Below are positions 1-60,765 of a stretch of DNA of 64,000 nt, one piece after another (the stretch's first letter is position 1; the number at the start of each line of letters is the position of its first letter). The notes under the pieces are model-generated. The model was not told where the DNA came from, did not search any database, and saw nothing but the letters and a program-made list of their open reading frames with translations. The stretch is taken from positions 124,434-188,433 of the forward strand of contig JAHDIF010000005.1 of the NCBI GenBank assembly GCA_020630915.1, read 5' to 3'. The DNA comes from Dokdonia sp. Its GTDB lineage: Bacteria; Bacteroidota; Bacteroidia; Flavobacteriales; Flavobacteriaceae. The translations under genes were made by a program, and so were the position numbers.

Positions 1-1398
1 CAAAATTACAGGGACTGGGTTGGTAGTATGTGCTGTATTAGGAGAGCCATCTGAGTTAATCATGGTTTCTGCATTCCCGTGGTCTGCTATAATTATGACT
101 GTATAGTCATTTTCTTGAGCGGTAGTCACAATATCTTTCGTGCAACTATCTACGGTTTCACACGCTTTCATTGCGGCTTCCATAACCCCAGTATGCCCCA
201 CCATATCTGGATTTGCAAAGTTAAGGCACACAAAATCTACTTCTCCTCTCTGTATTTCTGGAAGGATCTTATCTCTAATTTCAAAAGCACTCATTTCTGG
301 TTGTAAGTCGTAAGTAGCCACTTTAGGAGAAGGACATAATAATCGAGACTCACCCTTAAAAGGGCTCTCGCGACCTCCATTAAAGAAAAAGGTCACGTGC
401 GGATATTTTTCTGTTTCTGCAATTCTTATTTGCGCTTTGCCTGCTTTTGCAAGTGTTTCTCCCAGTGTATCTGTGAGATTTTCTTTATCATAGATGACAT
501 TCATACCTCTGAAGGTCTCGTCATAGTTAGTCATAGTGACGTAATAAAGGTCAAGTTTTGTAGTGTCATGCTCTGGAAAGTTCCTTTGGGAAAGCATTTC
601 CGTAAGCTCGCGACCACGGTCTGTTCTAAAATTAAAGAAGATGATCACGTCACCATCATCAACAGTAGCAATTGGTGTATTATCTTTTGTAAGAACTAAT
701 GGTTTTAAAAACTCATCGGTAACTCCATTGTCATAACTTTCTTGTATACTTTGAGAAATATCTGTAGTAGCCTGTCCCTCGCCTTTTACAATTAGATCAT
801 ACGCCATTTTCACACGTTCCCAGCGTTTGTCTCTGTCCATAGCATAGTAACGCCCTATGGCTGAAGCTAGTTGTGCGTTGTTCGCTTTCGCGAAAGCGTT
901 TATATCCTCCGCAAAACCTTTTCCAGACATTGGGTCTACATCACGACCATCTGTAAAGGCGTGAATGTAAGATTGAGGTACTCCAGCATTCTTTGCTGCA
1001 GTGATCAAACCTTTAAGATGATTGATGTGAGAGTGTACGCCTCCGTCTGAAAGTAACCCTAGAAAATGAACAGGTTTGTTATTTTTGATAGCATAGTCAA
1101 ACGCCTCACTGAGTGCCTTTTCGTCTTTGAGAGTATTGTCTTTAAGGGCTTTGTTTATTTTGGCAAAATCTTGATAGATGATACGACCAGCGCCTAGATT
1201 CATATGACCTACTTCGCTATTACCCATTTGACCTTCGGGTAGTCCCACATTTTCTCCGTGGGTAAGAAGTTGCGCGTGAGGATAGTCGTTATAAAGGCTA
1301 TCTATAAAAGGAGTTTGAGCTTGGTCTACGGCAGATACTTTCTTATCTGGAGCCATTCCCCAGCCGTCAAGTATCATTAGAATTGTTTTTTTGTTCAT
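1..1398 (-). CDS. gpmI: 2,3-bisphosphoglycerate-independent phosphoglycerate mutase (3' end cut by window edge)
   Basis: The minus-strand frame from ATG at 1398 to base 1 gives 466 codons with no stop. The protein begins MNKKTILMILDGWGMAP, the metal-binding start of the alkaline-phosphatase-fold mutases. It continues with GQMGNSEVGHMNLGAGR (nucleophile Ser region), HAFTDGRDVDP and, near the cut end, IIIADHGNAE. The enzyme interconverts 3- and 2-phosphoglycerate in cytosolic glycolysis with Mn and no bisphosphoglycerate cofactor. The family is about 505-515 residues, so roughly 40 C-terminal residues lie outside the window. An AFAKA segment here is encoded by the palindrome at 884-897. Confidence 0.95.
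   Translation of the reverse strand, partial: MNKKTILMILDGWGMAPDKKVSAVDQAQTPFIDSLYNDYPHAQLLTHGENVGLPEGQMGNSEVGHMNLGAGRIIYQDFAKINKALKDNTLKDEKALSEAFDYAIKNNKPVHFLGLLSDGGVHSHINHLKGLITAAKNAGVPQSYIHAFTDGRDVDPMSGKGFAEDINAFAKANNAQLASAIGRYYAMDRDKRWERVKMAYDLIVKGEGQATTDISQSIQESYDNGVTDEFLKPLVLTKDNTPIATVDDGDVIIFFNFRTDRGRELTEMLSQRNFPEHDTTKLDLYYVTMTNYDETFRGMNVIYDKENLTDTLGETLAKAGKAQIRIAETEKYPHVTFFFNGGRESPFKGESRLLCPSPKVATYDLQPEMSAFEIRDKILPEIQRGEVDFVCLNFANPDMVGHTGVMEAAMKACETVDSCTKDIVTTAQENDYTVIIIADHGNAETMINSDGSPNTAHTTNPVPVIL
884..897. repeat. GCTTTCGCGAAAGC palindrome in gpmI
   Basis: Exact copy; encodes the AFAKA of NAFAKANN on the minus strand. Confidence 0.95.
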
Positions 1399-1428
1399 CT
1401 ATAAAAATTGTCTTGTAAAGATAAAAAA

Positions 1429-1454
1429 CAAAACCCCGCTTACGCGAGGTTTTG
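1429..1454 (-). terminator. Rho-independent terminator downstream of the M48 peptidase gene
   Basis: Arms CAAAACCCCGC (1429-1439) and GCGAGGTTTTG (1444-1454) pair with one mismatch around a 4-base loop. On the minus strand the stem is followed by a T-rich run. It lies between the M48 stop and the gpmI start, so it ends the M48 transcript before gpmI. Confidence 0.75.
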
Positions 1455-1486
1455 AAGTGCTTTTAACGAAAAGGTTGTAGTTTGTT

Positions 1487-2263: not shown

Positions 2264-2363
2264 AATTTCTTCTGTTTAAATAGGGTAATAAGGTACGAAC
2301 TTGTAGGACTTTTCAAAAAGAAATGTTACAAGTAATTGACATCTGTAGGTGCATACCAGCCTA

Positions 2364-3506: not shown

Positions 3507-4025
3507 ATGAAAAAATATATTGCGATTTTTATAATAGCCGTTGTTTTTAGTGCTTGTAATCAAACAACTAAGGATGCTGCTGCTGGGGAAGATACCGCTT
3601 TCGCGAAAGCGGAAACCCAACAATCAGAATACACTTCGTATGGAGCAAAAATTTCTAAGGATGGAGCACTAGAAGTGAACCAAGCTATAGAAAAATATGC
3701 TTCTCTAAAAGAGGGAGATACTGCTGTAGTTAAATTTGAAGCACCTATTAACAGTGTGTGTTCAAAAAAGGGTTGCTGGATGAGACTGGCTACTGGTGAA
3801 GAAGAGGTTTTTGTGAAGTTTAAAGACTATGGATTTTTTGTGCCGCTAGATGCAGAAGGTGAAGCAGTGGTAGAAGGAAAAGCGTATCTAGAAGTTGTTT
3901 CTGTGGATGAGCTGCAACATATGGCAGAAGATGCTGGAAAATCTAAAGAAGAAATAGCCACGATTACGGAGCCTAAAAGGGAGATGCGCTTTATGGCAGA
4001 TGGCGTTCTTATTAAAGGGAAGTAA
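3507..4025 (+). CDS. DUF4920 domain lipoprotein
   Basis: The product is 172 residues. A signal peptide with lipobox VFSAC places the lipidated Cys at 17. A low-complexity linker follows, then a DUF4920-like domain with INSVCSKKGCWMRLATGEEEVFVKFKDYGFFVPLD. The two cysteines in the CSKKGCW motif may form a redox or metal site; the function of the family is not known to me. The linker residues 31-35 (AFAKA) are encoded by the palindrome at 3597-3610. The stop codon overlaps the mnmD start by one base, suggesting cotranscription. Confidence 0.8.
   Translation: MKKYIAIFIIAVVFSACNQTTKDAAAGEDTAFAKAETQQSEYTSYGAKISKDGALEVNQAIEKYASLKEGDTAVVKFEAPINSVCSKKGCWMRLATGEEEVFVKFKDYGFFVPLDAEGEAVVEGKAYLEVVSVDELQHMAEDAGKSKEEIATITEPKREMRFMADGVLIKGK
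3597..3610. repeat. GCTTTCGCGAAAGC palindrome in the DUF4920 gene
   Basis: Exact copy, extended to 18 bases by flanking CC/GG; encodes AFAKA in the linker after the lipobox. Confidence 0.95.
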
Positions 4026-5990: not shown

Positions 5991-6634
5991 CTTAATTTAT
6001 TGACAATAACAATTGATATCCAGCTTAGCATTCCATAACAAATTGTAATTATCCAAGCAAATTTATGTTGCAATGGATGTATAACAATAGTGCCAATATC
6101 ACCTAGCAAACCTAAAGGGTTTTGTAAGATATCCCAACTATTCCACCGTAAGTATCTGCCTAGATATATTCCAAAACCTATGAGTATACACGTACAAATG
6201 GTAAAAAGTAATTGTTGCTTTCGCGAAAGCGTAACTAAAAACAACCGTTGCATATCTGCAATACTATAAACCATATAGAGAAGTCCTAGTAGGCCAAAAA
6301 GCCCTATAATAGAAGCGTCTAGTAATAGCATGGAAGAACTGGTCCATTGAAGATGTGTGAAGTCTGAAATAATGTAAGGTGCATTAGGAAGAAATAATAA
6401 CCAGACCAGAAAAGTTAGGGCGCGCGTACTTTTAGGGGTAAACCAAGACGGCTTGAGTTGTACCAAAAAAGTAATGGCGTATGGGATGGCAGCGAGAAAA
6501 ATATTCCATACTAGAAATAGCATAAAAAATGACTGTGTTACCTTAATTCTAAACATAAGAAGTACGCCTGCCAGCAGCGAGAGTATAAACAACAAGGCAA
6601 GTTGATTGTATTTTTGAAAGATGAGTTTTTTCAT
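5978..6634 (-). CDS. DUF1361 family membrane protein
   Basis: The product is 218 residues, with six or seven predicted transmembrane helices. FLVWLLFLPNAPYIISDFTHL is the recognisable DUF1361 core. The function is unknown. It is the first gene of the DUF1361/DUF2809/glsA series. A cytoplasmic loop reading VTLSRKQQ is encoded by the palindrome copy at 6217-6230. Confidence 0.78.
   Translation of the reverse strand: MKKLIFQKYNQLALLFILSLLAGVLLMFRIKVTQSFFMLFLVWNIFLAAIPYAITFLVQLKPSWFTPKSTRALTFLVWLLFLPNAPYIISDFTHLQWTSSSMLLLDASIIGLFGLLGLLYMVYSIADMQRLFLVTLSRKQQLLFTICTCILIGFGIYLGRYLRWNSWDILQNPLGLLGDIGTIVIHPLQHKFAWIITICYGMLSWISIVIVNKLRCAR
6217..6230. repeat. GCTTTCGCGAAAGC palindrome in the DUF1361 gene
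   Basis: Exact copy; encodes LSRK within VTLSRKQQ. Confidence 0.95.
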
Positions 6635-8429: not shown

Positions 8430-8443
8430 GCTTTCGCGAAAGC
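8430..8443. repeat. GCTTTCGCGAAAGC palindrome, intergenic
   Basis: Exact copy in the 27-base gap between the membrane protein stop and the winged-helix regulator start. Confidence 0.95.
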
Positions 8444-9945: not shown

Positions 9946-11757
9946 TTAGATAATCACGTTTTTCATTTTCTTCCATACACTCCTTAATAAAATACCAGAT
10001 ACAATAACCACACCAAGACCTATGAGACCTTTAGTCGTTTGTCCATAAATAAAATATCCCGTTGTAAATAAAGATCCATATACAAAGGCACACCCTAACA
10101 GCATGGCAACTATACCGCTAGGGACACTCCAAGGCTCTTCGTTGGTTACAATGGTTGTTCCTTCTGCTGTTGCTTCTGCTATAATTTTCTTCCAGCCTGG
10201 ACCTCCAGGTTGGGTTCGTTTATAAAACGATTGTAATACGTCTTTACTTTCTGGTTGTGTTAGGAAGGTAACAAGAATCCATATAATCATAGAGCTTAGT
10301 ACTACGAAAGGGAATTTCGCGAAAGCAGGAAAAATCCCAACATCTCCAAACATCGTGTCGCCCAATGGAGTAAACGTTAAGGCCATAGATATAATTCCAG
10401 AAGCAAACATCGCACTAATCTCCGTCCACGCATTGATGCGCCACCAGAACCAGCGTAAGATAAATACCAGTCCAGTACCTGCACCAAACATTATGATGAT
10501 ATCAAATAACTGTAATGCATTTTGCAATTTAAGCGCCATAATAGCACTAATTATCATCAGGACTATGGTGGTCATTCTAGCAACATTTACTTGCTGTTTT
10601 TCTGAGGCATCTTTTTTTATTTGAGCTTTGTAAAAGTCATTTACTATATAACTCGCGCCCCAGTTAAGATGGGTAGAAATGGTACTCATAAAAGCCGCAG
10701 CAAGAGAAGCAAGCACAAGGCCTAAAAGTCCGCTTGGGAGTTTCGTAAGCATCGCTGAGTAGGCAAGATCTTGCCCAAGTTTATTTTCAGAAATATATGG
10801 AAAGGCAGCTTGGATACTTTCTATATTAGGAAAGACTACTAGTGATGCCAGTGCTACGAGAATCCAAGACCAAGGACGAAGAGCAATATGCATAAAATTA
10901 AAAAAGAACGTGGCACCTATAGCGTGATTTTCATTTTTTGCTGCGAGCATACGCTGGGCTACATAACCACCACCACCAGGCTCTCCACCAGGATACCAAC
11001 TGCTCCACCATTGCACGGCAATGGGGATAATGAATATGGTAATGAGCATTTCTGTGTCAGACACTTCTGGTATAAAAGCAAGTTTATCTGCCACATTAGG
11101 ATGTGTGATCATCGCTTCTAGTCCGCCTACTTCTGGCAGTCCTACGATATACCACGCAGCACCCACAGCACCGATCATGGCTACAAAAAAGAGTATAAAA
11201 TCTGTATAAACTACACCTTTAAAACCGCCTATGGTACTAAATAGAAGTGTGATCGTTCCGGCAATAAGGATGGTAACCTCACCCTCTAGTCCTAACATGA
11301 CTTCACCTATTTTTATGGCAGCAAGCATCACACCTGCCATAGCAAACATATTAAAGAATACGCCTAAAAAAATGGCTCTAAAACCTCTAAGAAAACGGGC
11401 AGGAGCTCCTCCATATCTAAGCTCGTAAAACTCAATATCTGTTTTTACATTAGATTTGCGCCATAGTTTTGCATACACAAAAACAGTGAGTAGTCCTGTG
11501 ATTAAGAAAGCCCACCAAACCCAGTTTCCTGCCACACCATTGGTTCTTACGATATCGGTTACAAGGTTGGGCGTATCCGTAGAGAAGGTGGTTGCGACCA
11601 TACTTAAACCTAATAGCCACCAAGGCATATTACGTCCAGAAAGAAAATACTGTCCAGTGTTTTTTCCAGCACTACGACCTACATAGAGCCCTACTCCAAG
11701 TATTACTACAAAAAGTCCAACAATTATTGCGAGGTCTAATGTCGACAAATCTATCAT
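9946..11757 (-). CDS. Sodium:solute symporter (SSS family), probable sugar transporter
   Basis: The product is 603 residues with about 13-14 transmembrane helices. The SSS family core is clear: DYFLSGR-like GQYFLSGRNMPWWLLGLSMVATTFSTDTP near the N-terminus, FSTIGGFKGVVYTDFILF, and SLAAAFMSTISTHLNWGASYIVNDFY (helix 8 sodium-site region). It cotransports a solute with Na+ across the inner membrane. It sits 10 bases after the nucleotidyltransferase gene in an operon with a GH109-like glycosidase and a GHMP kinase, so an amino sugar or galactose-type sugar is the likely cargo (inference). Confidence 0.88.
   Translation of the reverse strand: MIDLSTLDLAIIVGLFVVILGVGLYVGRSAGKNTGQYFLSGRNMPWWLLGLSMVATTFSTDTPNLVTDIVRTNGVAGNWVWWAFLITGLLTVFVYAKLWRKSNVKTDIEFYELRYGGAPARFLRGFRAIFLGVFFNMFAMAGVMLAAIKIGEVMLGLEGEVTILIAGTITLLFSTIGGFKGVVYTDFILFFVAMIGAVGAAWYIVGLPEVGGLEAMITHPNVADKLAFIPEVSDTEMLITIFIIPIAVQWWSSWYPGGEPGGGGYVAQRMLAAKNENHAIGATFFFNFMHIALRPWSWILVALASLVVFPNIESIQAAFPYISENKLGQDLAYSAMLTKLPSGLLGLVLASLAAAFMSTISTHLNWGASYIVNDFYKAQIKKDASEKQQVNVARMTTIVLMIISAIMALKLQNALQLFDIIIMFGAGTGLVFILRWFWWRINAWTEISAMFASGIISMALTFTPLGDTMFGDVGIFPAFAKFPFVVLSSMIIWILVTFLTQPESKDVLQSFYKRTQPGGPGWKKIIAEATAEGTTIVTNEEPWSVPSGIVAMLLGCAFVYGSLFTTGYFIYGQTTKGLIGLGVVIVSGILLRSVWKKMKNVII
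10313..10326. repeat. Degraded palindrome copy in the symporter gene
   Basis: AATTTCGCGAAAGC, two mismatches; encodes FAKF-type residues (PAFAKFPF). Confidence 0.6.
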
Positions 11758-12631: not shown

Positions 12632-13725
12632 AGGGTTTGTACTCCTTGTGATACATTTACTTTGTAGGCTGCAATAGCACCTGCATTGGTAAGAGCCTTT
12701 ATAATTTCTGGCTCTTTTCCTTTGGGAGCTAGGGCGCAAATACTGCCACCACCGCCAGAGCCTACTATTTTGGCTCCAAGTGCGCCAGCATTCAACGCTG
12801 CGTGAATCATAGCATCTATACGAGGAACTGTTATTTTTAAGGAATCTCTCAATACTTTGTGATGGGCAGTCATAAGATGTCCTATCTTTTTGTAGTCGAG
12901 TACGCTTTCGCGAAAGCATACCAATGCCTCCTTAGTAATTAAGTGGTTTTGAATGGCAGCATAAAAGAACGGCAATTCACTTGCGTTAATAATATCCTTG
13001 TACAACTCATAGTCTCGAAGTGTAGCTGTAGAGAGCATAAAATCTGAATATGTTGATTTTACTTTTTCTATAGCGCGAAGTGCATTCCCACGTAGGTCTC
13101 CCAAAAGGCCAATGGTATCTTTTGGTATACCAGAAACACCTATGATAAGACCCTCTAATTGTGTTCCTAAATTTTTAAAGTTGGATTGTTCATCTGTTTC
13201 TAGATACAAGATGTTTCCGAGCGCACTTGTATATTGATCCATTTTCCCTCCAGGAGAATTTTGCTCAAGCACTTCTGCCTCGTAAGCAATATGCGCCACA
13301 AGTTTTGGTGTAATAGGCGAAGTACATCCAAAAGTAGCAAGCAGCCACTGTGTCCAAGCTACCACCACGGCAGAGCTACTAGAAAGCCCTGCATTAATGG
13401 GGATATCACCAGTAATTGTTATCGAATATCCTTTGTCTATCCTGCAACCATATCTACGCACAACATTGAGGGTGTCCGTAAGATGGTTATTGTTTTGCGG
13501 ATTGTGTATGCTTCCCGATAAATCGGGACAGGTCTCGCGAAAGCTTAGGCCTTTTCCATTTCTAAGGTTTGGTAGATGAAAGTTCAAGTAATCTTCACCA
13601 TTCGTCACACCAGAAATAGTGATGTACCGGTCTATAGCACAGGCAATAATAGGAAGTTCTAAATAATCTTGATGATCACCAAAAAGGCAAATGCGCCCTG
13701 GAGCTTTTACAGTAATGGCTGACAT
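12628..13725 (-). CDS. GHMP family sugar kinase, galactokinase-like
   Basis: The product is 365 residues. APGRICLFGDHQDYLELPIIACAID is the GHMP motif 1 in galactokinase form, INAGLSSSSAVVVAWTQWL the ATP loop (motif 2), and GAKIVGSGGGGSICAL motif 3. It should phosphorylate the anomeric hydroxyl of a sugar, feeding the nucleotidyltransferase downstream. The start overlaps the GH109 stop by one base. Two palindromic insertions, at 12904-12917 and 13513-13544, lie inside this frame without breaking it. Confidence 0.85.
   Translation of the reverse strand: MSAITVKAPGRICLFGDHQDYLELPIIACAIDRYITISGVTNGEDYLNFHLPNLRNGKGLSFRETCPDLSGSIHNPQNNNHLTDTLNVVRRYGCRIDKGYSITITGDIPINAGLSSSSAVVVAWTQWLLATFGCTSPITPKLVAHIAYEAEVLEQNSPGGKMDQYTSALGNILYLETDEQSNFKNLGTQLEGLIIGVSGIPKDTIGLLGDLRGNALRAIEKVKSTYSDFMLSTATLRDYELYKDIINASELPFFYAAIQNHLITKEALVCFRESVLDYKKIGHLMTAHHKVLRDSLKITVPRIDAMIHAALNAGALGAKIVGSGGGGSICALAPKGKEPEIIKALTNAGAIAAYKVNVSQGVQTL
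12904..12917. repeat. GCTTTCGCGAAAGC palindrome in the GHMP kinase gene
   Basis: Exact copy; encodes FRES within VCFRESVLD. Confidence 0.95.
13513..13528. repeat. TCCCGATAAATCGGGA inverted repeat inside the kinase gene
   Basis: Arms TCCCGAT and ATCGGGA meet almost without a loop. Three bases on, 13531-13544 is a degraded GCTTTCGCGAAAGC copy. The pair encodes roughly SFRETCPDLSGS, a stretch without obvious family conservation. Confidence 0.8.
13531..13544. repeat. Degraded palindrome copy in the GHMP kinase gene
   Basis: GGTCTCGCGAAAGC, two mismatches, right after the TCCCGATAAATCGGGA repeat. Confidence 0.55.
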
Positions 13726-15627: not shown

Positions 15628-15660
15628 GGGGGACTTTTGGGGGAAAGTCCCCCTTTTTTT
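15628..15660 (+). terminator. Strong Rho-independent terminator after DUF1801
   Basis: Arms GGGGGACTTT (15628-15637) and AAAGTCCCCC (15644-15653) pair perfectly around a six-base loop and are followed by seven T. The last two T overlap the stop codon of the convergent kdsA gene. Confidence 0.85.
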
Positions 15661-16486: not shown

Positions 16487-16500
16487 GCTTTCGCGAAAGC
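16487..16500. repeat. GCTTTCGCGAAAGC palindrome, intergenic
   Basis: Exact copy 10 bases upstream of the kdsA start codon, in the gap to the flavin reductase gene. Confidence 0.95.
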
Positions 16501-17211: not shown

Positions 17212-18015
17212 ATGAGGGAGGCAAAACCAGAATATTTTGAAACTAACCGCACTACCTGGAATGAGAAAGTAAAGGTGCATACGCAGAGTGATTTTTATAG
17301 GCTAGAACAGTTTAAAAAAGGCGAGACTTCGCTTAATAGTTATGAACTCGAAGCTCTAGGCGACGTAAGTGGGAAATCATTATTGCACCTGCAATGTCAT
17401 TTTGGGCAAGATACCCTTAGCTGGACTCGTATGGGAGCGCAATGTACAGGTGTAGACATTAGTGATGCGGGGATAGCTTTCGCGAAAGCGCTATCCAAAG
17501 AACTTGCACTACCCGCAGATTTTGTGTGTTGCAACGTATTAGATACTTCCAAGCATATTACTAAGACTTTTGATATCGTATTTACGAGCTACGGAACCAT
17601 CGGGTGGCTACCAGACTTAAAACCTTGGGGAGCTATGATCGCCGAACGATTGAAACCTGGCGGAACTTTTTATATGGTAGAGTTTCACCCCATAGTCTGG
17701 ATGTTTGATTATGTAGATGGCGAGCCAAAAATGCGATATGGCTACAATCAAACTGAAGCTATTTATGAAGAATATCAAGGTACCTACGCAGACACTTCTT
17801 CAAAAATGATGAGCAAAGAATATGGATGGAATCACGGGCTAGGTGAAGTTGTAAGTGCACTTACCCAAGCTGGATTACGAGTTGAATTTCTGAGAGAACA
17901 CGATGCTAGTCCCTATAATGTGCTGCCGGATTTGATCCAACAAGAAAACGGCCTTTTTGTTACTAAAGACCGCTTATATCCTTTATTATTTGAACTTAGG
18001 GTTACGAAAGATTAA
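17212..18015 (+). CDS. Class I SAM-dependent methyltransferase
   Basis: The product is 267 residues from the ATG at 17212 (MREAKPEYFETNRTTWNEK). SLLHLQCHFGQDTLSWTRMGAQCTGVDISDAG is SAM motif I and its acidic loop, and FDIVFTSYGTIGWLPDLKPWG motif II. The substrate is unknown. An upstream start at 17023 would read 63 residues antisense to the flavin reductase and is rejected. AFAKA in the helix after the acidic loop is encoded by the palindrome at 17476-17489. The stop codon lies inside the arm of a long hairpin element. Confidence 0.82.
   Translation: MREAKPEYFETNRTTWNEKVKVHTQSDFYRLEQFKKGETSLNSYELEALGDVSGKSLLHLQCHFGQDTLSWTRMGAQCTGVDISDAGIAFAKALSKELALPADFVCCNVLDTSKHITKTFDIVFTSYGTIGWLPDLKPWGAMIAERLKPGGTFYMVEFHPIVWMFDYVDGEPKMRYGYNQTEAIYEEYQGTYADTSSKMMSKEYGWNHGLGEVVSALTQAGLRVEFLREHDASPYNVLPDLIQQENGLFVTKDRLYPLLFELRVTKD
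17476..17489. repeat. GCTTTCGCGAAAGC palindrome in the methyltransferase gene
   Basis: Exact copy; encodes AFAKA within GIAFAKALSK. Confidence 0.95.
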
Positions 18016-19760: not shown

Positions 19761-20855
19761 TTAAAAATAATTGATAGGATTGGTGTTTTCCTCTGATAAA
19801 AGGACTGCAAAACTACGAATTTTTTCTGTAAGATAATCGGCTATGAGGTTTTTTGTAAATCGCTCACTTTCATAGTGCCCCACATCTGCCAAAAGTAGCT
19901 GCCCTTCTGCCTTATAGTAGTCGTGATATTTCAGGTCTGCTGTGACATATGCATCTGCCTTATGTGCCTTTGCTGCTGCTATAGCAAAGGCACCGCTACC
20001 GCCTAATACAGCTACTTTCTTTATTTTTTTGCCTAACAGTTGAGAGTGTCTCACTCCACCACTTTTAAAAGTTGTCTTGATAAGGCTAAGAAAATCATTT
20101 TCTAATATTGGATTTTTTAAGGTGCCTATCATTCCCATACCCACGTTTTTATTTTCATTTTCTAGAGATACGAGTTCATAGGCGACCTCTTCATATGGAT
20201 GGTTCTCAATAAGTGCTTGAACTACATTTTTCTTTAAATGTTTATGGAAGGTGATATGGAGTTGCGTTTCTCCTTCTTGATGTTGTTTGTGTTTCTTACC
20301 TACAAACGGGTTTGTATTTTCTCCAGCTCTAAAGGTGCCCTCTCCTTCAGTAGAAAAACTACATTGATCGTACTTCCCTATATGTCCTGCTCCTGCCTGG
20401 AATAATGATTCTTTTAACGCTTTCGCGAAAGCGTGAGGAACATACGTAGTAAGTTTATACAAACTCTCTCTTTTAGGAAGTAATATTTTGCAATCTTCGA
20501 GTTGTAAAGCTTGTGCCATTCCATAATTAACACCGTGAGCCATATTGTCGAGTGCTGTATGAATGGCGTAGATTGCAATATCGTTCTTGATGGCTGTAAG
20601 AATTGCTTTTTCTACATAATTACTGCCATTAAGTCTTTTTAAACCAGAGAAGAGTATGGGGTGAAAACATACGATTAGGTTGCAGTTTTTTAAAATGGCT
20701 TCCTGAACGACGTTTTCTAAGGCATCGTGTGCGACTAGAATATTGGTAATTGTATTTTTTTTATCCCCTACTAGGAGGCCTACATTGTCAAAATCTTCTG
20801 CCTGTGCGAGAGGAGCCCATTGATCTAATAAGTTGCCTACATCTGCTATTGTCAT
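19761..20855 (-). CDS. Nif3-like dinuclear metal centre protein (GTP cyclohydrolase I type 2 family)
   Basis: The product is 364 residues from the ATG at 20855 (MTIADVGNLLDQWAPL). EDFDNVGLLVGD, VAHDALENVV, CFHPILFSGLKRL, AIHTALDNMAHGVN and the C-terminal VTADLKYHDYYKAEGQLLLADVGHYESER give the metal-binding His/Asp/Glu residues. The middle third is the CutA-like insert found in the longer Nif3 proteins. The family forms hexameric toroids; its cellular role is uncertain. AFAKALK in the insert comes from the palindrome at 20419-20432. Confidence 0.88.
   Translation of the reverse strand: MTIADVGNLLDQWAPLAQAEDFDNVGLLVGDKKNTITNILVAHDALENVVQEAILKNCNLIVCFHPILFSGLKRLNGSNYVEKAILTAIKNDIAIYAIHTALDNMAHGVNYGMAQALQLEDCKILLPKRESLYKLTTYVPHAFAKALKESLFQAGAGHIGKYDQCSFSTEGEGTFRAGENTNPFVGKKHKQHQEGETQLHITFHKHLKKNVVQALIENHPYEEVAYELVSLENENKNVGMGMIGTLKNPILENDFLSLIKTTFKSGGVRHSQLLGKKIKKVAVLGGSGAFAIAAAKAHKADAYVTADLKYHDYYKAEGQLLLADVGHYESERFTKNLIADYLTEKIRSFAVLLSEENTNPINYF
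20419..20432. repeat. GCTTTCGCGAAAGC palindrome in the Nif3-like gene
   Basis: Exact copy; encodes AFAKA within HAFAKALKE. Confidence 0.95.
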
Positions 20856-24161: not shown

Positions 24162-25175
24162 CTATTTATTAGAAACCTTCATTATTAGATCTATTAATCT
24201 ACTAGAGTAGCCAGTTTCATTATCATACCAACCAATTATTTTGATCATTTTCCCAATTACCGATGTCATTTGTGAGTCGTAAATACAGGAATGTTTGTTT
24301 CCTATAATGTCAACAGATACTAGGGGTTTGTCTGTATATTCAATAATTCCAGATAACTCATTTGAAGCGGCATTTTTTATAGCAGCATTTACCGAATCAG
24401 CCGTTACTTGTTTGGTGACATTAAAGGTTATATCAGACAAGGAGCCATTAGGTACTGGCACTCTTATGCCACAACCTCCAATAACATCTTTTAAGTGTGG
24501 GAATATTTTGGTTAAAGCTTTAGCTGCTCCGGTAGTTGTAGGGACTATGCTTTGTCCTGCCGCTCGAGCACGTCTTAAGTCTCTATGTGGTTGGTCATGT
24601 AAACTTTGGTCAGTGGTATAGGAGTGAACCGTGGTTATATAGGCTTGCTCAATCGTACAAATTTCATCAATTATTTTAACAAGAGGTGCTGTGTTGTTAG
24701 TAGTGCAAGAGGCATTAGATATAATCTTTTCCGTTCCATCTAATGTGTGTTCATTTACGCCCATTACAATCATCTTGATGGAATTGTCTAGTGGTGGGAC
24801 AGACAGAATCACTTTGCGAGCACCAGCGCTTATATGATGCAACAGATCTTCTTTAATTTTAAACTTTCCAGTACTCTCAAGAACCACATCTGGAGCTACT
24901 TGTGACCAAGGTATTTGAGCTATGTGTGATGTATTAAATAGCGGTATTTCTTTATCATTTACTAAGATGAAATTCCCTTTTACGCTTTCGCGAAAGCGTA
25001 CGTCTTCCCCATATATGCCGTGAATACTGTCATACTTGAGGAGATGACTCAAGGTAGCAGCATCTGCTAGGTCGTTTATTCCTACAATCTCAAAATTAGG
25101 ATGATCAAAAGCGAGCCTAAAGAAAGTGCGACCTATTCTTCCAAAACCATTAATAGCGACTCTAATTTTACTCAT
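24162..25175 (-). CDS. gap: Glyceraldehyde-3-phosphate dehydrogenase
   Basis: The product is 337 residues. INGFGRIGR (8-16) is the NAD loop, NASCTTNNTAPL carries the catalytic Cys157, and TTVHSYTTDQ the catalytic His. The enzyme oxidises glyceraldehyde-3-phosphate in glycolysis. Residues 60-64 (RFRES), a surface-type segment, are encoded by the 20-base palindrome at 24981-25000. It lies five bases after lipA and 29 bases before the histidine kinase, on the same strand. Confidence 0.95.
   Translation of the reverse strand: MSKIRVAINGFGRIGRTFFRLAFDHPNFEIVGINDLADAATLSHLLKYDSIHGIYGEDVRFRESVKGNFILVNDKEIPLFNTSHIAQIPWSQVAPDVVLESTGKFKIKEDLLHHISAGARKVILSVPPLDNSIKMIVMGVNEHTLDGTEKIISNASCTTNNTAPLVKIIDEICTIEQAYITTVHSYTTDQSLHDQPHRDLRRARAAGQSIVPTTTGAAKALTKIFPHLKDVIGGCGIRVPVPNGSLSDITFNVTKQVTADSVNAAIKNAASNELSGIIEYTDKPLVSVDIIGNKHSCIYDSQMTSVIGKMIKIIGWYDNETGYSSRLIDLIMKVSNK
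24984..24997. repeat. GCTTTCGCGAAAGC palindrome in gap
   Basis: Exact copy, part of a 20-base perfect palindrome TACGCTTTCGCGAAAGCGTA (24981-25000); encodes RFRES. Confidence 0.95.
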
Positions 25176-37288: not shown

Positions 37289-37302
37289 GTTTTCGCGAAA
37301 GC
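37289..37302. repeat. Near-copy of the 14-bp palindrome, intergenic
   Basis: GTTTTCGCGAAAGC differs at one base from the consensus; it lies just after the murB stop in the gap to the convergent fasciclin gene. Confidence 0.8.
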
Positions 37303-39591: not shown

Positions 39592-40749
39592 TTGGAGTTA
39601 TCTTTATCTTATTTGTTTTATGTTTTTGTTGGAATAACAGCGATTAATATTTGTTATTACCTTTTTTATATGCGTTTTGCTTTCGCGAAAGCGAGTAGGC
39701 AAGATTCACGCCCAAAGGGAGAGCCAAAGGGTAAAGCAAAAAGTACAAAATCGAGCTATCAACCTGTTTCTGTTATTGTATGTGCAAAGAATGAAGCCCA
39801 AAACCTTCGCAATAATATTCCAAAATGGCTTGATCAAGAGCACCCTAACTTTCAATTAGTGCTCATTAATGATGCCTCTATTGATCAGACAAAGGAGGTT
39901 ATGGAAGAATTTGCGGTAAAGGACAGTCGTATTACTATAGTAAACGTAGAAAATAATGAGGCCTTTTGGGCTAATAAAAAATATGCATTGACTCTAGGTA
40001 TTAAGAGGGCAGAGCATGATATATTACTTTTTACAGATGCAGATTGTGAGCCAGCCTCTCGAAATTGGATTGCGGCAATGACAGCGGGTATTTCTAGGGA
40101 GAAGCAGCTCGTTATAGGATATGGGGGCTATCTCAAAATAAAAGGATCTTTACTCAATATTCTTATACGTTTTGAGACCGTTTTTACAGCGCTACAATAT
40201 TTAGGTCACGCTATATGGGGTAGGTCATATATGGGGGTAGGTCGTAATCTTGCATATACTTCAAATCTTTACTACGATCAAAGTGGTTTTATGAACCATA
40301 TGCAAATACCCAGTGGAGATGATGACTTATTTGTAAATGGGGCATCTACTAGTAAAAACACAACGCTAGCTTTTCAATATGATTCATTTACGCTATCAGA
40401 GCCTAAGAGAAGTTTCAAAAATTGGATCACTCAGAAAAGACGCCACGTAAATGTAGCTCACCTATATAAATGGAGAGATAGATTTAAACTTGGTCTTTTC
40501 TATAGTAGCCAGTTAATGTTTGTGGTTATTTCTGTTGTCTTACTTTGTATGCAGTTTAATTGGGAACTTGTTACTTTAGCAATAGGCATACGGTATGTAG
40601 TCTCTTGGACGGTCATCACATCTGTTGCAACAAAATTAAAAGAGAAGGACACAGCCTTATTATACCCTTTTCTCGAGATATTTCTTATCATTTTTCAATT
40701 AAGTATCTTTATATCAAACTTGATTGCAAAACCTAATCGTTGGAAATAA
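39592..40749 (+). CDS. Family 2 glycosyltransferase, membrane-bound
   Basis: The product is 385 residues. The TTG at 39592 is the likely start, because the N-terminal membrane helix lies before the first ATG. PVSVIVCAKNEAQNLRNNIPKWLDQ opens the GT-A domain, FTDADCEPAS is the DxD metal motif, and two helices close the chain. It probably adds a sugar to a lipid-linked acceptor; the acceptor is unknown. The palindrome at 39679-39692 encodes FAKAS directly after the first helix. It overlaps the next gene by 10 bases. Confidence 0.82.
   Translation: MELSLSYLFYVFVGITAINICYYLFYMRFAFAKASRQDSRPKGEPKGKAKSTKSSYQPVSVIVCAKNEAQNLRNNIPKWLDQEHPNFQLVLINDASIDQTKEVMEEFAVKDSRITIVNVENNEAFWANKKYALTLGIKRAEHDILLFTDADCEPASRNWIAAMTAGISREKQLVIGYGGYLKIKGSLLNILIRFETVFTALQYLGHAIWGRSYMGVGRNLAYTSNLYYDQSGFMNHMQIPSGDDDLFVNGASTSKNTTLAFQYDSFTLSEPKRSFKNWITQKRRHVNVAHLYKWRDRFKLGLFYSSQLMFVVISVVLLCMQFNWELVTLAIGIRYVVSWTVITSVATKLKEKDTALLYPFLEIFLIIFQLSIFISNLIAKPNRWK
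39679..39692. repeat. GCTTTCGCGAAAGC palindrome in the glycosyltransferase gene
   Basis: Exact copy; encodes AFAKA within FAFAKASRQ, after the first membrane helix. Confidence 0.95.
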
Positions 40750-41309: not shown

Positions 41310-42544
41310 CACTCTTTTCATTAAAACGCCTAGGTCCTGGATTATTATTTGCTGGAGCAGCTATAGGTGTTTCCCATCTCGTGCAATCTACCCGAGCTGG
41401 AGCAGATTTTGGACTGGGGTTACTTTGGGCTCTACTTTTAGTGAATCTTATCAAATATCCATTTTTTCAATTTGGTCCTAGATATGCTGCTGCCACAGGG
41501 AGGAGTCTGTTAGAAGGGTACTTGCGATTGGGAAAGCCACTTCTCGTAATTTACTGTATTCTAACACTGCTTACGATGTTTACGATACAGACCGCGGTAA
41601 CTATTGTTACAGCTGGACTTGCAGTGCATATATTTGGTATTACTGATAGTGCTGCAATATGGAGTGTTATTATTACTATGGTTTGTGCTACGATACTTAT
41701 TTTGGGTAGATATAAACTATTAGATAGGTTAATGAAAGTGGTTGTTATTACCTTGACTTTAAGTACTATAATAGCAGTTTTTTTTGCCTTTCGCGAAAGC
41801 ATAACTACATCTTCTTCTAATACTATTGTGAGCTTAAGCCAGGTTGTACCTGACAGCGGGGCAGGCATAGCATTTCTTATTGCTTTTATGGGGTGGATGC
41901 CAGCCCCACTGGACATTTCTATCTGGCACTCGTTATGGACTTTAGAGAAAAAAAAGAATACCTCCGGGACGACGTTAAGTACGGCTCTTTTTGATTTTAA
42001 TATTGGATATACAGGTACCGTAGTTTTAGGGATTGGTTTTGTGTTATTGGGAGCCCTCGTTATGTATGGTTCTGGGGAGACTTTTTCTAACAAAGGAGGA
42101 GAGTTTGCCCAACAACTTATAGCTATGTATACCTCTAGTCTAGGGCAATGGGCAACAGCTTTTATTGGTATAGCTGCCCTTACCACGATGTTTAGTACTA
42201 CCCTAACCACTCTGGATGCTTCACCAAGAGCTATGGCTCATACCTTAAAGCTCCTTAAGGTCAATGATCACCTGAGTAGTTATATATTATGGCTTGTTAT
42301 TTTAATACTGGGAACGTGTAGTATACTTTTCTTCTTTGTAAGCGAGATGGGGACCCTTGTAAAAGTAGCAACCATTTTATCATTTCTTACCGCTCCATTT
42401 TATGCGATTTGTAACTATCTGGTCTTTAGAGACCCATCTATTCCAGCAAGTGCAAAACTTTCTAAGTCCCTGGAGATATTAAGTCTCTTGAGTATAGTTT
42501 GTCTACTAGGCTTTAGTTTATGGTATGTAAGTACATTATTTTAG
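41306..42544 (+). CDS. Nramp-family transporter lacking canonical metal-site residues
   Basis: The product is 412 residues with about 11 transmembrane helices. GPGLLFAGAAIGVSHLVQSTRAGADFGLGLLWALLLVNL follows the Nramp helix 1-2 pattern, but GVSH stands where DPGN normally binds metal. In helix 6 WMPAPLDISIW replaces the MPHN motif. The overall fold and length fit Nramp, yet the cargo may not be Mn or Fe. It overlaps the sigma factor gene by four bases. A near-palindrome at 41787-41800 encodes AFRES. Confidence 0.85.
   Translation: MTLFSLKRLGPGLLFAGAAIGVSHLVQSTRAGADFGLGLLWALLLVNLIKYPFFQFGPRYAAATGRSLLEGYLRLGKPLLVIYCILTLLTMFTIQTAVTIVTAGLAVHIFGITDSAAIWSVIITMVCATILILGRYKLLDRLMKVVVITLTLSTIIAVFFAFRESITTSSSNTIVSLSQVVPDSGAGIAFLIAFMGWMPAPLDISIWHSLWTLEKKKNTSGTTLSTALFDFNIGYTGTVVLGIGFVLLGALVMYGSGETFSNKGGEFAQQLIAMYTSSLGQWATAFIGIAALTTMFSTTLTTLDASPRAMAHTLKLLKVNDHLSSYILWLVILILGTCSILFFFVSEMGTLVKVATILSFLTAPFYAICNYLVFRDPSIPASAKLSKSLEILSLLSIVCLLGFSLWYVSTLF
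41787..41800. repeat. Near-copy of the palindrome in the Nramp-like gene
   Basis: CCTTTCGCGAAAGC, one mismatch; encodes FRES within FAFRESITT. Confidence 0.8.
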
Positions 42545-44821: not shown

Positions 44822-45722
44822 GCTCGCCAGTTACCTCCATTTTCACATTATAGTTTTTATATGGGGTTTTACGGCCGTATTAGGAGCACTCATTTCTATA
44901 GACTCTGTGCCTTTAGTATTTTTTAGAATGGGGCTAGCCTCTGTAGTTATCTATGCCTACATTAAGATAAAAAAAATAGATCTTTCTATACAGACAAAAA
45001 CCCTGGGAGGATTTGCACTAGCGGGATTGATTATTGCCTTGCACTGGCTTACGTTTTTTGGAGCTATTAAAGTGGCAAATGTATCTGTTACATTAGCGTG
45101 TATGAGTACAGGCGCTTTTTTTACAGCCTTGTTAGAGCCTTTGTTTTATAAGCGAAAGTTCATTTGGTACGAATTACTATTTGGCCTAATAGTCGTGGGC
45201 GCATTGTACGTTATTTTTGAAGTTCAGCCAGAATACCAATTGGGTATAGGACTGGCACTAACATCTGCTTTCTTGTCTGCAATTTTCACATTAATCAATG
45301 GAAGATTTGTTCATACGCATAATCCTACGAAAATTTCCTTTTACGAACTTAGTATTGGCACAGCCTGTATTATGGTTTATCTCGCTTTCGCGAAAGCAGA
45401 TACTTTCTTCTCAAAAGATTTTTTCTTCCTATCTAGTTCAGATTGGATATACATCATCATACTCGCAACAATATGTACTGCCTACGCTTTCATTGCATCT
45501 GTAAAGGTAATGCAGTATTTGAGCCCTTATACGATTATGCTTACCATTAATCTCGAGCCTGTTTATGGGATTTTACTAGCATTTCTAGTATTAGGTAATC
45601 GTGAAAAAATGGAGCCAACCTTTTATTATGGAGCCATTGTCATTTTACTAGTTGTACTCGCAAACGGAATATTGAAAAACAAGGATGCTTTTGTGCTCAA
45701 AAAATCAAAAAAAATAGAGTAG
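44808..45722 (+). CDS. EamA family transporter
   Basis: The product is 304 residues with ten predicted helices in two EamA repeats (about 8-135 and 150-290). IWGFTAVLGALISIDSVPLVFFRMGLASV and LSPYTIMLTINLEPVYGILLAFLVLG are typical. It is an inner-membrane drug/metabolite exporter of unknown substrate. It overlaps the LptF/G gene by 14 bases. AFAKA in the loop before DTFFSKD comes from the palindrome at 45384-45397. Confidence 0.85.
   Translation: MQNAKLASYLHFHIIVFIWGFTAVLGALISIDSVPLVFFRMGLASVVIYAYIKIKKIDLSIQTKTLGGFALAGLIIALHWLTFFGAIKVANVSVTLACMSTGAFFTALLEPLFYKRKFIWYELLFGLIVVGALYVIFEVQPEYQLGIGLALTSAFLSAIFTLINGRFVHTHNPTKISFYELSIGTACIMVYLAFAKADTFFSKDFFFLSSSDWIYIIILATICTAYAFIASVKVMQYLSPYTIMLTINLEPVYGILLAFLVLGNREKMEPTFYYGAIVILLVVLANGILKNKDAFVLKKSKKIE
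45384..45397. repeat. GCTTTCGCGAAAGC palindrome in the EamA gene
   Basis: Exact copy; encodes AFAKA within LAFAKADTF. Confidence 0.95.
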
Positions 45723-48478: not shown

Positions 48479-49744
48479 ATGATAATGAAGAAACACTTAA
48501 TTATTGCATTTTTTTTATTGAGTTGCGCTTTCGCGAAAGCATCCTACATCTTAGTACCCATGGATGCCGAAACCCAAAGAGAGCATCTCAAAGCCTATGG
48601 GATTACCTACTGGGCACTTGACCAAAATTTAAAAGTTAAGTGGCTGCTCAATTATAGAGGAGGCTCTTTCTTACTTCCTGATACAGAAGATATTCGCAAA
48701 GAATGTACCATAAGAGGGGTGGTGTACGAAGTTCTCTCAGATAGCGCGACAGATCAAATTCTTACTGAAATAGGAAGTCCATCACAAAATATGGAAGCTG
48801 TTATTCTAGAAAAAGCTCCTAAAATTGCAGTATATACTCCTGACAGCAAAGTGCCTTGGGATGATGCAGTAACGATGGTGCTTACCTATGCAGAGATTCC
48901 CTATAAAACAATTTACGACAAAGAGGTGTTGAGCGATCAATTGATATTGTATGATTGGTTACACCTACATCACGAAGATTTTACTGGGCAATATGGCAAG
49001 TTCTATAGAGCCTACAGATCTGCTCCTTGGTATATCGAAGAAAAAAAAGCGGCAGAAGCTCTTGCAACAGAGCTAGGATATTCTAAAGTATCTGAAGAAA
49101 AAAGAGATGTAGCCCTAAAAATACGTGACTACGTAGTAGGTGGGGGATTTATGTTTGCCATGTGCAGTGCGACAGATAGTTTTGATATAGCACTCTCAGC
49201 AGAAGGGGTAGATATATGTGAGCCTATGTTTGATGGAGATGCTTCAGATGCAGGCTATCAGAGTAAAATAGATTTTAAGAAAACTTTTGCCTTTAAGGAC
49301 TTTTTGTTAGAGAGGTCTCCTTTAGTTTATGAGTTTTCATCTATTGATATGACCCGTAAACGAAAGGTTAATTTTAAGACAGACTATTTTACCCTCAAAG
49401 ATTATAGCGCAAAGTGGGATCCTATTCCAACTATGCTATGTCAGAATCACACAGCATTAGTCAAAGGATTTATGGGACAAACAACTTCGTATGATGCCCA
49501 GACGATTAAGTCTAATGTGCTTGTGATGGGAGAGAATAAAACTAACGGAGAAGCAAGATATATTCACGGTATAAAAGGCAAAGGATTTTTTACTTTTTAT
49601 GGAGGTCACGATCCAGAAGATTATCAACATAGGGTAGGAGATCCCAAGACAGAACTAGAATTGCATCCCAATTCACCTGGATATAGATTAATTTTAAATA
49701 ATGTGCTTTTTCCGGCCGCCCGAAAGAAAAAGCAAAAAACCTAA
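48479..49744 (+). CDS. Exported conserved protein of unknown function
   Basis: The product is 421 residues. A signal peptide (to about 16-22) reads FFLLSCAFAKASY; either a lipobox LLSC or cleavage in the AFAKA segment is possible. The mature part (ILVPMDAETQREHLKAYGITYWALD, VGGGFMFAMCSATDSFDIALSAEG, FYGGHDPEDYQH) suggests a large globular protein with a glutamine-amidotransferase-like fold, unproven. Databases sometimes label such proteins asparagine synthetase B, but it shares nothing with AsnB motifs; real AsnB is at 51135. AFAKA is from the palindrome at 48527-48540. The DUF922 gene overlaps by one base. Confidence 0.7.
   Translation: MIMKKHLIIAFFLLSCAFAKASYILVPMDAETQREHLKAYGITYWALDQNLKVKWLLNYRGGSFLLPDTEDIRKECTIRGVVYEVLSDSATDQILTEIGSPSQNMEAVILEKAPKIAVYTPDSKVPWDDAVTMVLTYAEIPYKTIYDKEVLSDQLILYDWLHLHHEDFTGQYGKFYRAYRSAPWYIEEKKAAEALATELGYSKVSEEKRDVALKIRDYVVGGGFMFAMCSATDSFDIALSAEGVDICEPMFDGDASDAGYQSKIDFKKTFAFKDFLLERSPLVYEFSSIDMTRKRKVNFKTDYFTLKDYSAKWDPIPTMLCQNHTALVKGFMGQTTSYDAQTIKSNVLVMGENKTNGEARYIHGIKGKGFFTFYGGHDPEDYQHRVGDPKTELELHPNSPGYRLILNNVLFPAARKKKQKT
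48527..48540. repeat. GCTTTCGCGAAAGC palindrome in the 421-residue exported protein gene
   Basis: Exact copy; encodes AFAKA at residues 17-21, the signal-peptide cleavage region. Confidence 0.95.
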
Positions 49745-50991: not shown

Positions 50992-51005
50992 GCTTTCGCG
51001 AAAGA
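50992..51005. repeat. Near-copy of the 14-bp palindrome, intergenic
   Basis: GCTTTCGCGAAAGA differs from the consensus at the last base. It lies in the 258-base gap between the divergent DUF2911 and asnB genes, where I see no other clear signal. Confidence 0.8.
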
Positions 51006-52924: not shown

Positions 52925-52938
52925 GCTTTCGCGAAAGC
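52925..52938. repeat. GCTTTCGCGAAAGC palindrome, intergenic
   Basis: Exact copy between the asnB terminator and the gyrB promoter region. Confidence 0.95.
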
Positions 52939-56933: not shown

Positions 56934-56947
56934 GCTTTCGCGAAAGC
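56934..56947. repeat. GCTTTCGCGAAAGC palindrome, intergenic
   Basis: Exact copy directly after the mdh stop and before its terminator stem. Confidence 0.95.
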
Positions 56948-56952
56948 AAAAC

Positions 56953-60100: not shown

Positions 60101-60738
60101 CATATAATGGGGGTGGATCTGAGGATATTATTGAGACCGTAGTTTTTGATCTGAGTTCAGGTCAAGACCCGATACTAAAATTTGACTTGGCCAAAGCACA
60201 ATATTCGGCTGGCTTTAGTGATGGAATGCGAGTAGAAGTATCTGTAGATTGTGGCGGTACCTACACAACAATCTATGAGAAAGATGGTTTAGACTTGTCT
60301 ACCTTAGATAATTATACAACTGCAAATTGGTCACCTACATCTGCCAATGATTGGAGAACGGAGGAAATCGATCTAACGCCTTATCAAGGAGGCACTGCTA
60401 TATTTAGAATTATAAATATTTCTGGTTTTGGAAATGGTACTTTCATAGATAATGTGAATGTAGAGAACGTACTTTCTGTAGAAGAAAATGAGCTTACAGG
60501 AATTGCTGTATTTCCTAATCCGGCGAGTAATCTTGTAAGCGTTGCGTTACCTAACACAATGACAGGTATTACTTCGTTTGAGATTACTAACAATTTGGGT
60601 CAGGTAGTATCTAGAAAAGAGAGCTCGGTTGTAGGGGGCGCAGTAAGTATAGATATTTCTAGCCTTTCTAGAGGTTTATATTTTATCGCTATAGAGAATG
60701 CGGGTAGTCGTGCTGTAAAGAAACTTATTGTAAGATAG
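57139..60738 (+). CDS. S8 family serine peptidase with type IX secretion sorting domain
   Basis: The product is 1199 residues. A signal peptide (to about 29, LSAQ) and an N-terminal prodomain lead to a subtilase domain with Asp250 (VRDDG), His276 (THGDGVAGILAG), Asn366 and Ser446 (GGTSGASPG). A beta-rich module follows, then two fibronectin/CARDB-like regions (about 640-930) and a MAM/jelly-roll-like domain (940-1110). The end (IAVFPNPASNLVSVALP ... SRGLYFIAIENAGSRAVKKLIVR) is the T9SS type A sorting domain. It is exported across the outer membrane, probably to degrade proteins outside the cell. Confidence 0.93.
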   Translation: MNKTTFQDLRKFFGVFVLTALFSLALSAQNNPYAIQFQNDYVSLDENIDTFQWNDLSQELKISNGFYTWVQFYQTPAQTIQDGLKTMGVEIIEYVGSKTYLLFIPTSVSPSYLQSKGVRAVTNVEGAYKLSEDLRLGIIGDWAVQGDQILVTLQYHDKVSSDYVIQDLAAKQISVKQEYKGFNNIDLYIPSNCLDALVELPYVKYVEVIAAPAVKEDTPARVLHRAAGLDTQTDAGRNYTGDGIGVLVRDDGIVGPHIDFQGRIDNSQASGSGQTHGDGVAGILAGAGNLNPNNRGMAAGANVFVSNYAANFQDTATVNWINDGSVQITNSSYGDGCNGGYTTGTQTVDQQIEDTPSLLHVFSCGNSGGNNCNYGAGTGWGTITGGHKQGKNVIATANVFFDGSLVGSSSWGPATDGRIKPDIAANGQNQISTNENNGYLSFGGTSGASPGIAGVSAQLYELYGEFNGGELPESALIKAALLNTANDAGNVGPDFKFGWGIVNGLRAGKLLEDGRFLSGGATQGSTNTHTINVPAGTTQVRFMAYWADTPAAAGATTALVNDLDLVVTSPSSTDLLPWVLDPTPNPTNLNTPATTGVDHLNNMEQVLINTPEAGDYTITITGFDVPVGPQKYYVVYEIITDQLAVTHPNDGESMVPGTNEVIHWDAVNTTEDFVVDYSLDGGATYTNITTVASGTDFFVWNVPAEVSGQAKVRVTSGAVSDVSDGLFSIADQVTGLAIESACPTEATFTWDALDGAESYDLYILGDEYMEVVGTSTTNSVTVPISSLDAEIWYAITASNATLGWTNERTIATFYEGGLLNCTLNNDLTVTQILSDTNNFSGACGNADGIVSATIENNGIGDQTDFTVSYQLSGQSAVEETFTGTLAPGASVDYDFATILDIPTSGAYTLEVSVSAAGDEYLENDSLSTDFYVQTSVTSTPFVEDFETAGFPADGWNILNPDGEDTWQQESVTGSDGTFTTTGFIDNFSYNGGGSEDIIETVVFDLSSGQDPILKFDLAKAQYSAGFSDGMRVEVSVDCGGTYTTIYEKDGLDLSTLDNYTTANWSPTSANDWRTEEIDLTPYQGGTAIFRIINISGFGNGTFIDNVNVENVLSVEENELTGIAVFPNPASNLVSVALPNTMTGITSFEITNNLGQVVSRKESSVVGGAVSIDISSLSRGLYFIAIENAGSRAVKKLIVR

Positions 60739-60751
60739 ATGATGTAATAAC

Positions 60752-60765
60752 GCTTTCGCGAAAGC
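60752..60765. repeat. GCTTTCGCGAAAGC palindrome, intergenic
   Basis: Exact copy 13 bases after the subtilase stop, before its terminator stem. Confidence 0.95.

Follow-up and report, generated by a model that had tools for sequence, protein, structure and literature searches.

Chromosome-organising proteins bind Noc sites and matS, palindromes of about 14 bp that are present on the chromosome in multiple copies, and Chi sites are short (5-8 nt), directional and placed in composition-skewed surroundings. The nearest known kind to the sequence described here is the highly iterated palindrome of cyanobacteria: HIP1 and the alternate HIPs (GCGATCGC) are 5-10 bp long and iterated about 1 kb apart (PMC4390886). 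DNA uptake sequences (DUS) and uptake signal sequences (USS) are spaced ~1-1.5 kb apart, and DUS are reported to be conserved in permissive parts of the core genome and absent from recently acquired genes (PMC2397512). Here we describe a 14-bp perfect palindrome, GCTTTCGCGAAAGC, in a 64,000-nucleotide window of a Dokdonia genome (contig C3 of genome G000 in genus g1, positions 124434-188433; "the window" means this whole stretch). The palindrome repeats along the chromosomes of a few marine genera, which suggests a protein reading it genome-wide. Our best guess, with a probability of about 0.45 as judged from sequence, is that it lies at the centre of a two-fold symmetric site where one candidate dimeric, sequence-specific DNA-binding protein of g1, Nonlabens and one further genus would land all along the genome.

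Like HIP1, GCTTTCGCGAAAGC is a perfect palindrome iterated through the genome with palindromic extensions, and in both, some lineages have sporadically exchanged one motif for another. However, GCTTTCGCGAAAGC is longer (14-22 bp) and sparser (one copy per 3.6-7.8 kb among the genomes that carry it), and it has symmetric 25-bp G-poor flanks, the flanks of HIP1 being outside the comparison. With the DUS and USS of Neisseria and Pasteurellaceae it shares hundreds of exact copies, permissive places and persistence while the flanks diverge (gyrB region, valS), but it is palindromic and sparser, and temperate phages and a probable mobile element also carry it. Noc sites and matS are likewise palindromic and multi-copy, whereas GCTTTCGCGAAAGC has many more copies and no large empty region in 20 sampled stretches of genome G017, and 14 of 16 carriers have just one ParB. 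It resembles Chi in density and skewed surroundings but is palindromic and much longer, and unlike repetitive extragenic palindromic (REP) sequences, bacterial interspersed mosaic elements (BIME) and miniature inverted-repeat transposable elements (MITE), it shows no inserted unit in well-aligned orthologs and no flanking sequence shared beyond a few bases. We found no description of GCTTTCGCGAAAGC in the open-access papers searched, most subscription papers being outside the search; its core TTTCGCGAAA does occur in published literature, e.g., among human absent words. Highly iterated palindromes have been puzzling since HIP1 because methylation and function are hard to separate. In the present case, no methyltransferase of the three families profiled is shared by all carriers, and the iterated palindrome comes with a quantified dyad, bounded symmetric flanks and regular spacing.

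Copies in the window, the genome and the family

The window contains 17 exact, three one-mismatch and four two-mismatch copies of GCTTTCGCGAAAGC, whereas 100 dinucleotide-preserving shuffles gave a mean of 0.15 and a maximum of 2 matches with at most two mismatches. The whole genome (2,967,236 bases, 18 contigs) contains 685 exact copies, or 1 per 4.3 kb, and 0 copies of the reversed pattern. A sequence-only reading of the window had listed the 17 exact copies and the three with one mismatch (37289, 41787, 50992), and every position proved right, as did its placement of 12 exact copies inside open reading frames (ORFs, by simple ORF calling) and five between them. Among the two-mismatch copies it named 10313 and 13531, which are present, and overlooked two more (12008, 46854). 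Its comparison with HIP1 holds in so far as the 685 copies make a genome-wide iterated palindrome of that kind. It had also considered that the genome count might be near expectation with the clustering confined to the window, or that relatives might lack the motif at orthologous sites; the count is 685 against 0 for the reversed pattern, and many orthologous sites are kept.

Genomes with hundreds of copies are called carriers below; they are compared with 14 non-carriers, in which 0-16 copies occur. The motif is present 369-905 times in each of the 17 other g1 genomes searched. Of 397 genomes drawn evenly from the family, 80 contain it at least once, but counts in the hundreds are confined to six: two g1 genomes (685 and 857), three of g11 (578, 664 and 609) and G230 of genus g210 (408), the next counts being 19, 17 and 16. 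No genome in a draw of 395 from the phylum has more than 6 copies, except the window's own. Genus g11 is Nonlabens, as GyrB of N. dokdonensis locus L031, which has 4 copies in 21 kb, is 96% identical to that of G281. In a tree of GyrB and ValRS from 25 genomes, G230 adjoins g1 and Nonlabens stands among other genera (intervening branch supports 0.82-0.99); thus the motif has been gained repeatedly, widely lost or transferred. Copy number is not significantly correlated with genome size in the genus (r = 0.34, P = 0.25, 13 genomes at least 90% complete). When 80 gyrB-region loci (~4-22 kb each) were scanned for other iterated palindromes, only L031, bearing GCTTTCGCGAAAGC itself, passed the thresholds; seven others have non-palindromic 12-mers in 4-7 spaced copies.

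Exactness, gain and loss of sites

Exact copies predominate over near matches. In the window and 20 evenly placed stretches of G017 (464 kb in all) there are 146 exact, 9 one-mismatch, 22 two-mismatch and 17 three-mismatch copies, compared with means of 0, 0.08, 1.1 and 14.9 (maxima 0, 1, 12 and 220) for 60 permuted palindromes in the same 464 kb. The two-mismatch copies are not random decay: both outer bases of one side are missing in 17 of 32 and, in a second set, in 24 of 38. All 162 TTTCGCGAAA cores in the 464 kb keep at least one outer GC, and 31 one-armed copies have flanks that are G-poor on both sides (11% and 13%). Single-mismatch deviations fall at positions 1-2 or their mirror in 10 of 17 copies in g1, 11 of 24 in Nonlabens and 6 of 18 in G230, in which position 5 is the most frequent (10/18).

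It is also evident that sites are retained while their surroundings change. In the gyrB region, 184 of 190 orthologous pairs with 75-100% flank identity are exact (the pairs overlap and are non-independent), and the neutral expectation for exact pairs in the 80-85% bin is 0.07; below 75% flank identity, where alignments are less reliable, 55 of 124 pairs are exact. Between G017 and G009, 30 of 33 sites are exact versus 20 of 126 nearby control 14-mers, with shared sites counted from both sides. Over 237 pairs, identity is 99.6% in the 14-mer, 90-92% in the adjoining 4 bp, 80-85% at flank positions 5-25, 81-83% at 26-40, 84-85% at 41-100 and 87-88% beyond 100. Orthologs without the site have alleles such as GCTTTTGCAAAAGC and GCTTTAGCAAAAGC that align without indels, so in well-aligned orthologs sites appear to be gained and lost by substitution rather than insertion. 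A gap at the site is found in 31 of 314 ortholog alignments, none of which has flank identity of 76% or more.

The valS gene, with two sites in the window, illustrates such gain. The site at 33041-33054 is exact in all 13 full-length g1 genes and in all three Nonlabens genes, where it reads LSRKR, and G230 valS (L330) has an exact site in the same codons, 2 nt away and in another frame, that reads AFAKA. As the same spot holds the palindrome in two reading frames, independent gain is the simplest explanation, and this tolerant stretch of the protein is a hot spot at which sites are gained. Among ten non-carrier valS genes without either site, four read LAKEK, one reads LAREK and the rest vary. 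The site accompanies changed amino acids, and it appears from these sequences that the palindrome can override protein sequence. Local exchange between g1 and Nonlabens at the shared site was rejected, with no raised identity in the adjoining windows. The other site (31996) is present in 10 of the 13 full-length g1 genes and nowhere else in the comparison, which omitted split or partial genes of G001, G007 and G016.

Symmetric flanks, spacing and mobile DNA

At intergenic sites, the core extends symmetrically to a ~22-bp palindrome, TTACGCTTTCGCGAAAGCGTAA, whose outer parts in the logo are TTAC and GTAA. Read outward, the strand has 6.6-12% G at 2-25 bp, 16-17% at 26-50 bp and 19-20% beyond 150 bp; A and C are in excess to 25 bp on each side, and the bias is mostly gone by 26-30 bp. 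The core and both biased flanks make up a symmetric zone of ~64 bp. Nonlabens flanks are alike (7-9% G at 5-25 bp, 15% at 26-40 bp), and five control palindromes have no such G-poor flanks. Genic sites show the bias on both sides, where it reaches codon positions 1 and 2 and is mirror-symmetric for either direction of transcription, which indicates that it acts on DNA and not on RNA. The copies have no flanking sequence in common beyond a few bases. Pairing from flank to flank shows no excess and at 5-10 bp is below that in shuffles, so an extended hairpin was rejected. A 10-bp helical periodicity of the flanks, strong before detrending, was likewise discarded as not significant afterwards (fraction of shuffles 0.12). 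A signal with a 3-bp period does reach significance, both when coding sites are counted in and, without detrending, in strictly intergenic flanks (0.005).

The sites are also spaced out. Gaps shorter than 1 kb are ~3- to 6-fold depleted or absent: G017 has 6 among 109 gaps where 31.9 would be expected, G009 has 7 among 81 (20.4 expected), G230 has 0 among 35 (6.0 expected) and Nonlabens has 2 among 62 (12.9 expected). The number of copies in each 20 kb varies less than a Poisson process would give in G017 (index 0.30, P = 0.0015) and in Nonlabens (index 0.33, P = 0.004), and consecutive listed gaps in G017 depart from an exponential distribution (66 gaps, Kolmogorov-Smirnov P = 0.001). The 20 G017 stretches have 3-9 copies each, with origin and terminus unmapped. 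With ORFs called by a simple length rule, intergenic sites are in excess in g1 (63 of 129 in G017 and 43 of 101 in G009, non-coding DNA being 8-9%) and account for 26 of 89 sites in Nonlabens (9% non-coding) and 9 of 55 in G230, which is not significant. The distance from gene end to site is at most 30 bp from the stop codon in 32 of 56 cases in G017 and 14 of 40 in G009. This frequent closeness to stop codons suggests that some copies may double as terminators.

Outside the carrier genera, the palindrome is found in a probable mobile element, of which the L386 locus encodes heavy-metal P-type ATPases, AcrB/CusB-like efflux and RteC. Homologous blocks are present in several genomes, with palindromes partly at matching positions; G118, G127, G141, G254 and G200 each have two copies exactly 933 bp apart. 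Flanks of the element copies are similar to those above (9% G at 5-15 bp, 17% at 16-25 bp).

Similarly, a scan of viral contigs gave at least 120 stretches with the motif. Among the matches listed, 39 had GC content below 0.42 or several copies, and the full records were searched for 30 of these 39, or 26 records, 16 of which hold 2-7 copies in 12-40 kb. A site spacing of 4,480 bp is common to phage records with portal, head or integrase genes (G815, G818, G819, G822 and G827), and one of 1,760 bp to G816 and G824 (Mu-like or related records). These shared spacings mark near relatives, and the phage lineages are therefore fewer than 16. The 20 phage-record proteins scanned include matches to Mu-like transposase or DNA-transposition, integrase, portal, major head, terminase and tape-measure families, with three proteins matching nothing and three matching only families of unknown function. 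The transposition and integrase matches indicate that the motif-bearing records include temperate phages, whose hosts are inferred and not recorded. The 27 distinct phage sites have outer G in 78% and G-poor flanks (11% and 14%). Two phages isolated on a Persicivirga strain (named Nonlabens phage, with no annotated integrase) have 0 copies in 35.7 kb each. Two relatives, one from Cellulophaga and a Mu-like one from Winogradskyella, also have 0 copies. The motif in phage records could help assign phages to hosts.

A candidate DNA-binding protein and its rivals

Taken together, the long dyad, the bounded and symmetric zone around it, the regular spacing, the lack of dependence on transcription and the occurrence in mobile DNA able to reside in chromosomes are best fitted by a dimeric DNA-binding protein that acts along the chromosome. 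We infer that it reads the site while doing architectural or maintenance work on chromosome-resident DNA (compaction, segregation, repair), and the chromosome-organising or repair protein proposed by the sequence-only reading is kept as the best guess. Sites would arise in tolerant places through point substitution, after which selection or biased repair would keep them exact. Little would be gained from another site less than ~1 kb away, so that sites would become spaced out, and phages and mobile elements living in the chromosome would gain sites too. Natural gain and loss comparisons, marked temperate phages and culturable genera make function directly testable. The carrier genera include culturable marine strains.

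Several observations weigh against a dimeric reader. The flank zone keeps its composition but not its sequence; protein contacts seldom behave in this way, and the pattern could stem from mutation. A less pronounced flank bias is seen in G230 (15-22% G at 2-25 bp versus 23-25% further out), where one-mismatch copies are also commoner (55 exact to 18); Nonlabens is likewise less exact (89 to 24). Evenness is weak and not significant in G009 (index 0.57, P = 0.07) and G230 (0.65, P = 0.13), and the consecutive gaps of G000, only 19 in number, show no significant departure from exponential (Kolmogorov-Smirnov P = 0.11). Furthermore, the reader protein was not found among the families that we profiled over 16 carriers and 14 non-carriers, counting matches over the cut-off, and none of the methyltransferase, ParB and pilus ATPase families separates the two groups. 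A duplicated ParB or Noc as reader was rejected as not carrier-wide: 14 of the 16 carriers have a single PF02195 match, and the second match in G011 and G016 is a 616-aa frame of a type also found in non-carriers. An SOS-box reading was dropped too, because published Bacteroidetes boxes differ (PMC8565304).

A more specific form of the dimeric-reader explanation, which we hold to be doubtful, is a residency mark of sequence only. The dimeric protein would read the ~22-bp dyad in its 64-bp strand-skewed zone about every 4 kb, and all chromosome-resident DNA, Mu-like phages, integrating phages and mobile elements included, would have to acquire the mark, without DNA methylation.

Among the rivals, a DNA uptake signal spread by molecular drive survives best, though it seems unlikely. 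Competent cells would favour site-bearing fragments, and sites would spread in permissive places about one fragment-length apart, as they do in Neisseria and Haemophilus but through an uptake route of Flavobacteriaceae. The regular spacing fits this, as do conserved sites in permissive core places with more diverged surroundings, as reported for DUS (PMC2397512). The idea is kept alive by Riemerella, a naturally competent member of the family (PMC8459023, PMC7965970). Besides ComEC, DprA, ComF and RecA, transformation of R. anatipestifer requires four proteins that have no homology to the well-known transformation machinery (PMC8459023), and R. columbina prefers its own DNA (PMC7965970). However, DUS are reportedly absent from recent acquisitions, yet temperate phages and the probable mobile element bear GCTTTCGCGAAAGC with similar flanks, and the motif is palindromic and sparser than USS and DUS. 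The pilus/type II secretion ATPase PF00437 is over the cut-off in 6 of the 16 carriers and absent from 10, which has no bearing on a pilus-independent route. The earlier suggestion of DNA uptake is weakened by the copies in temperate phages and the probable mobile element.

Next, and rather improbable, is a Chi-like bidirectional site that would switch an end-processing nuclease from degradation to repair, with RecA loading helped by the keto-rich strands on its 5' side. The density resembles that of E. coli Chi, the strand entering the site is G/T-richer and C-poor for 25 nt on both sides, and the motif is present in mobile DNA. Nevertheless, a 14-22-bp dyad fits a dimer binding double-stranded DNA better than a short directional Chi.

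We find it distinctly improbable that the palindrome is a by-product of the HIP1 type, made and protected without any function of its own by biased mismatch repair or some other mutational ratchet. Alleles such as GCTTTTGCAAAAGC, a symmetric zone of composition without sequence conservation and sites in mobile DNA agree with it, and Elhai's model predicts saturation of spacing (PMC4390886). That model, however, needs a methyltransferase. PF00145 is over the cut-off in 7 of the 16 carriers, PF01555 in 2 and PF02086 in 10, none being common to all, and G006, G009 and G281 have none of them; the profiling was limited to these three families, with PF02384 and other classes left out. The earlier idea of a methylation target is not supported by the same profiles. 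A specificity of 14-22 bp is also long for repair bias, and the amino-acid changes that go with the valS site suggest selection.

Very unlikely is a self mark consisting of sequence alone, which a defence or degradation system would read and which temperate phages and mobile elements would mimic. These do hold several copies with host-like flanks, but neither of the two phages from a Nonlabens-type host has any copy, and the mark is thus not needed to infect that host, barring counter-measures; the host strain itself may or may not carry the motif. Finally, an RNA-level element (terminator, rut-like site or hairpin) or a mobile REP or MITE repeat, to which the many intergenic copies near stop codons and the short hairpin that the core can form would point, is hardly credible given flanks that are mirror-symmetric in genes for either transcription direction and show no pairing excess, substitution instead of insertion in well-aligned orthologs and a window without an Rfam match. 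The motif had been called neither a terminator nor a REP element: the REP part is supported by flanks that share no more than a few bases and by the substitutions, and the terminator part is partly wrong, as some of the copies near stop codons may double as terminators.

The copies in the window and the loci in mobile DNA are collected in Table 1.

Table 1. Copies of the palindrome in the window, with motif-bearing loci and records outside the carrier genomes
Feature	Position or identifier	Strand	Remarks
Exact copy	884..897	.	inside ORF
Exact copy	3597..3610	.	inside ORF
Exact copy	6217..6230	.	inside ORF
Exact copy	8430..8443	.	intergenic; right after end of minus-strand ORF 8448-9110
Exact copy	12904..12917	.	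minus-strand ORF 12628-13725 (presumably galactokinase-like), reads CFRES; second ORF overlaps copy
Exact copy	16487..16500	.	intergenic; just upstream of minus-strand ORF 15659-16477
Exact copy	17476..17489	.	genic, AFAKA frame
Exact copy	20419..20432	.	genic
Exact copy	24984..24997	.	genic; ORF presumably GAPDH-like
Exact copy	31996..32009	.	in valS
Exact copy	33041..33054	.	in valS
Exact copy	39679..39692	.	genic
Exact copy	45384..45397	.	genic; exact at orthologous place in 4/6 aligned relatives
Exact copy	48527..48540	.	genic; exact in 1/3 aligned relatives
Exact copy	52925..52938	.	intergenic; exact in 5/5 aligned relatives
Exact copy	56934..56947	.	intergenic; 12 bp beyond stop of ORF 55995-56921
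Exact copy	60752..60765	.	intergenic; 13 bp beyond stop of ORF 57139-60738; exact in 1/1 aligned relative
One-mismatch copy GTTTTCGCGAAAGC	37289..37302	.	
One-mismatch copy CCTTTCGCGAAAGC	41787..41800	.	
One-mismatch copy GCTTTCGCGAAAGA	50992..51005	.	
Two-mismatch copy nnTTTCGCGAAAGC	10313..10326	.	recurrent class without outer GC on one side
Element loci	L386-L391 (G127, G254, G141, G118, G200, G376), L392 (G029)		all outside carrier genera
Viral records with 2-7 copies	G815, G818, G819, G822, G827; G816, G817, G824; G811		

Two minor observations concern the sequences themselves. The gyrB gene of G010 (L107) has one in-frame TGA in the assembly, and a AGGGATGAGGGATGAGG-like repeat is among the commonest 10- to 14-mers of the window.

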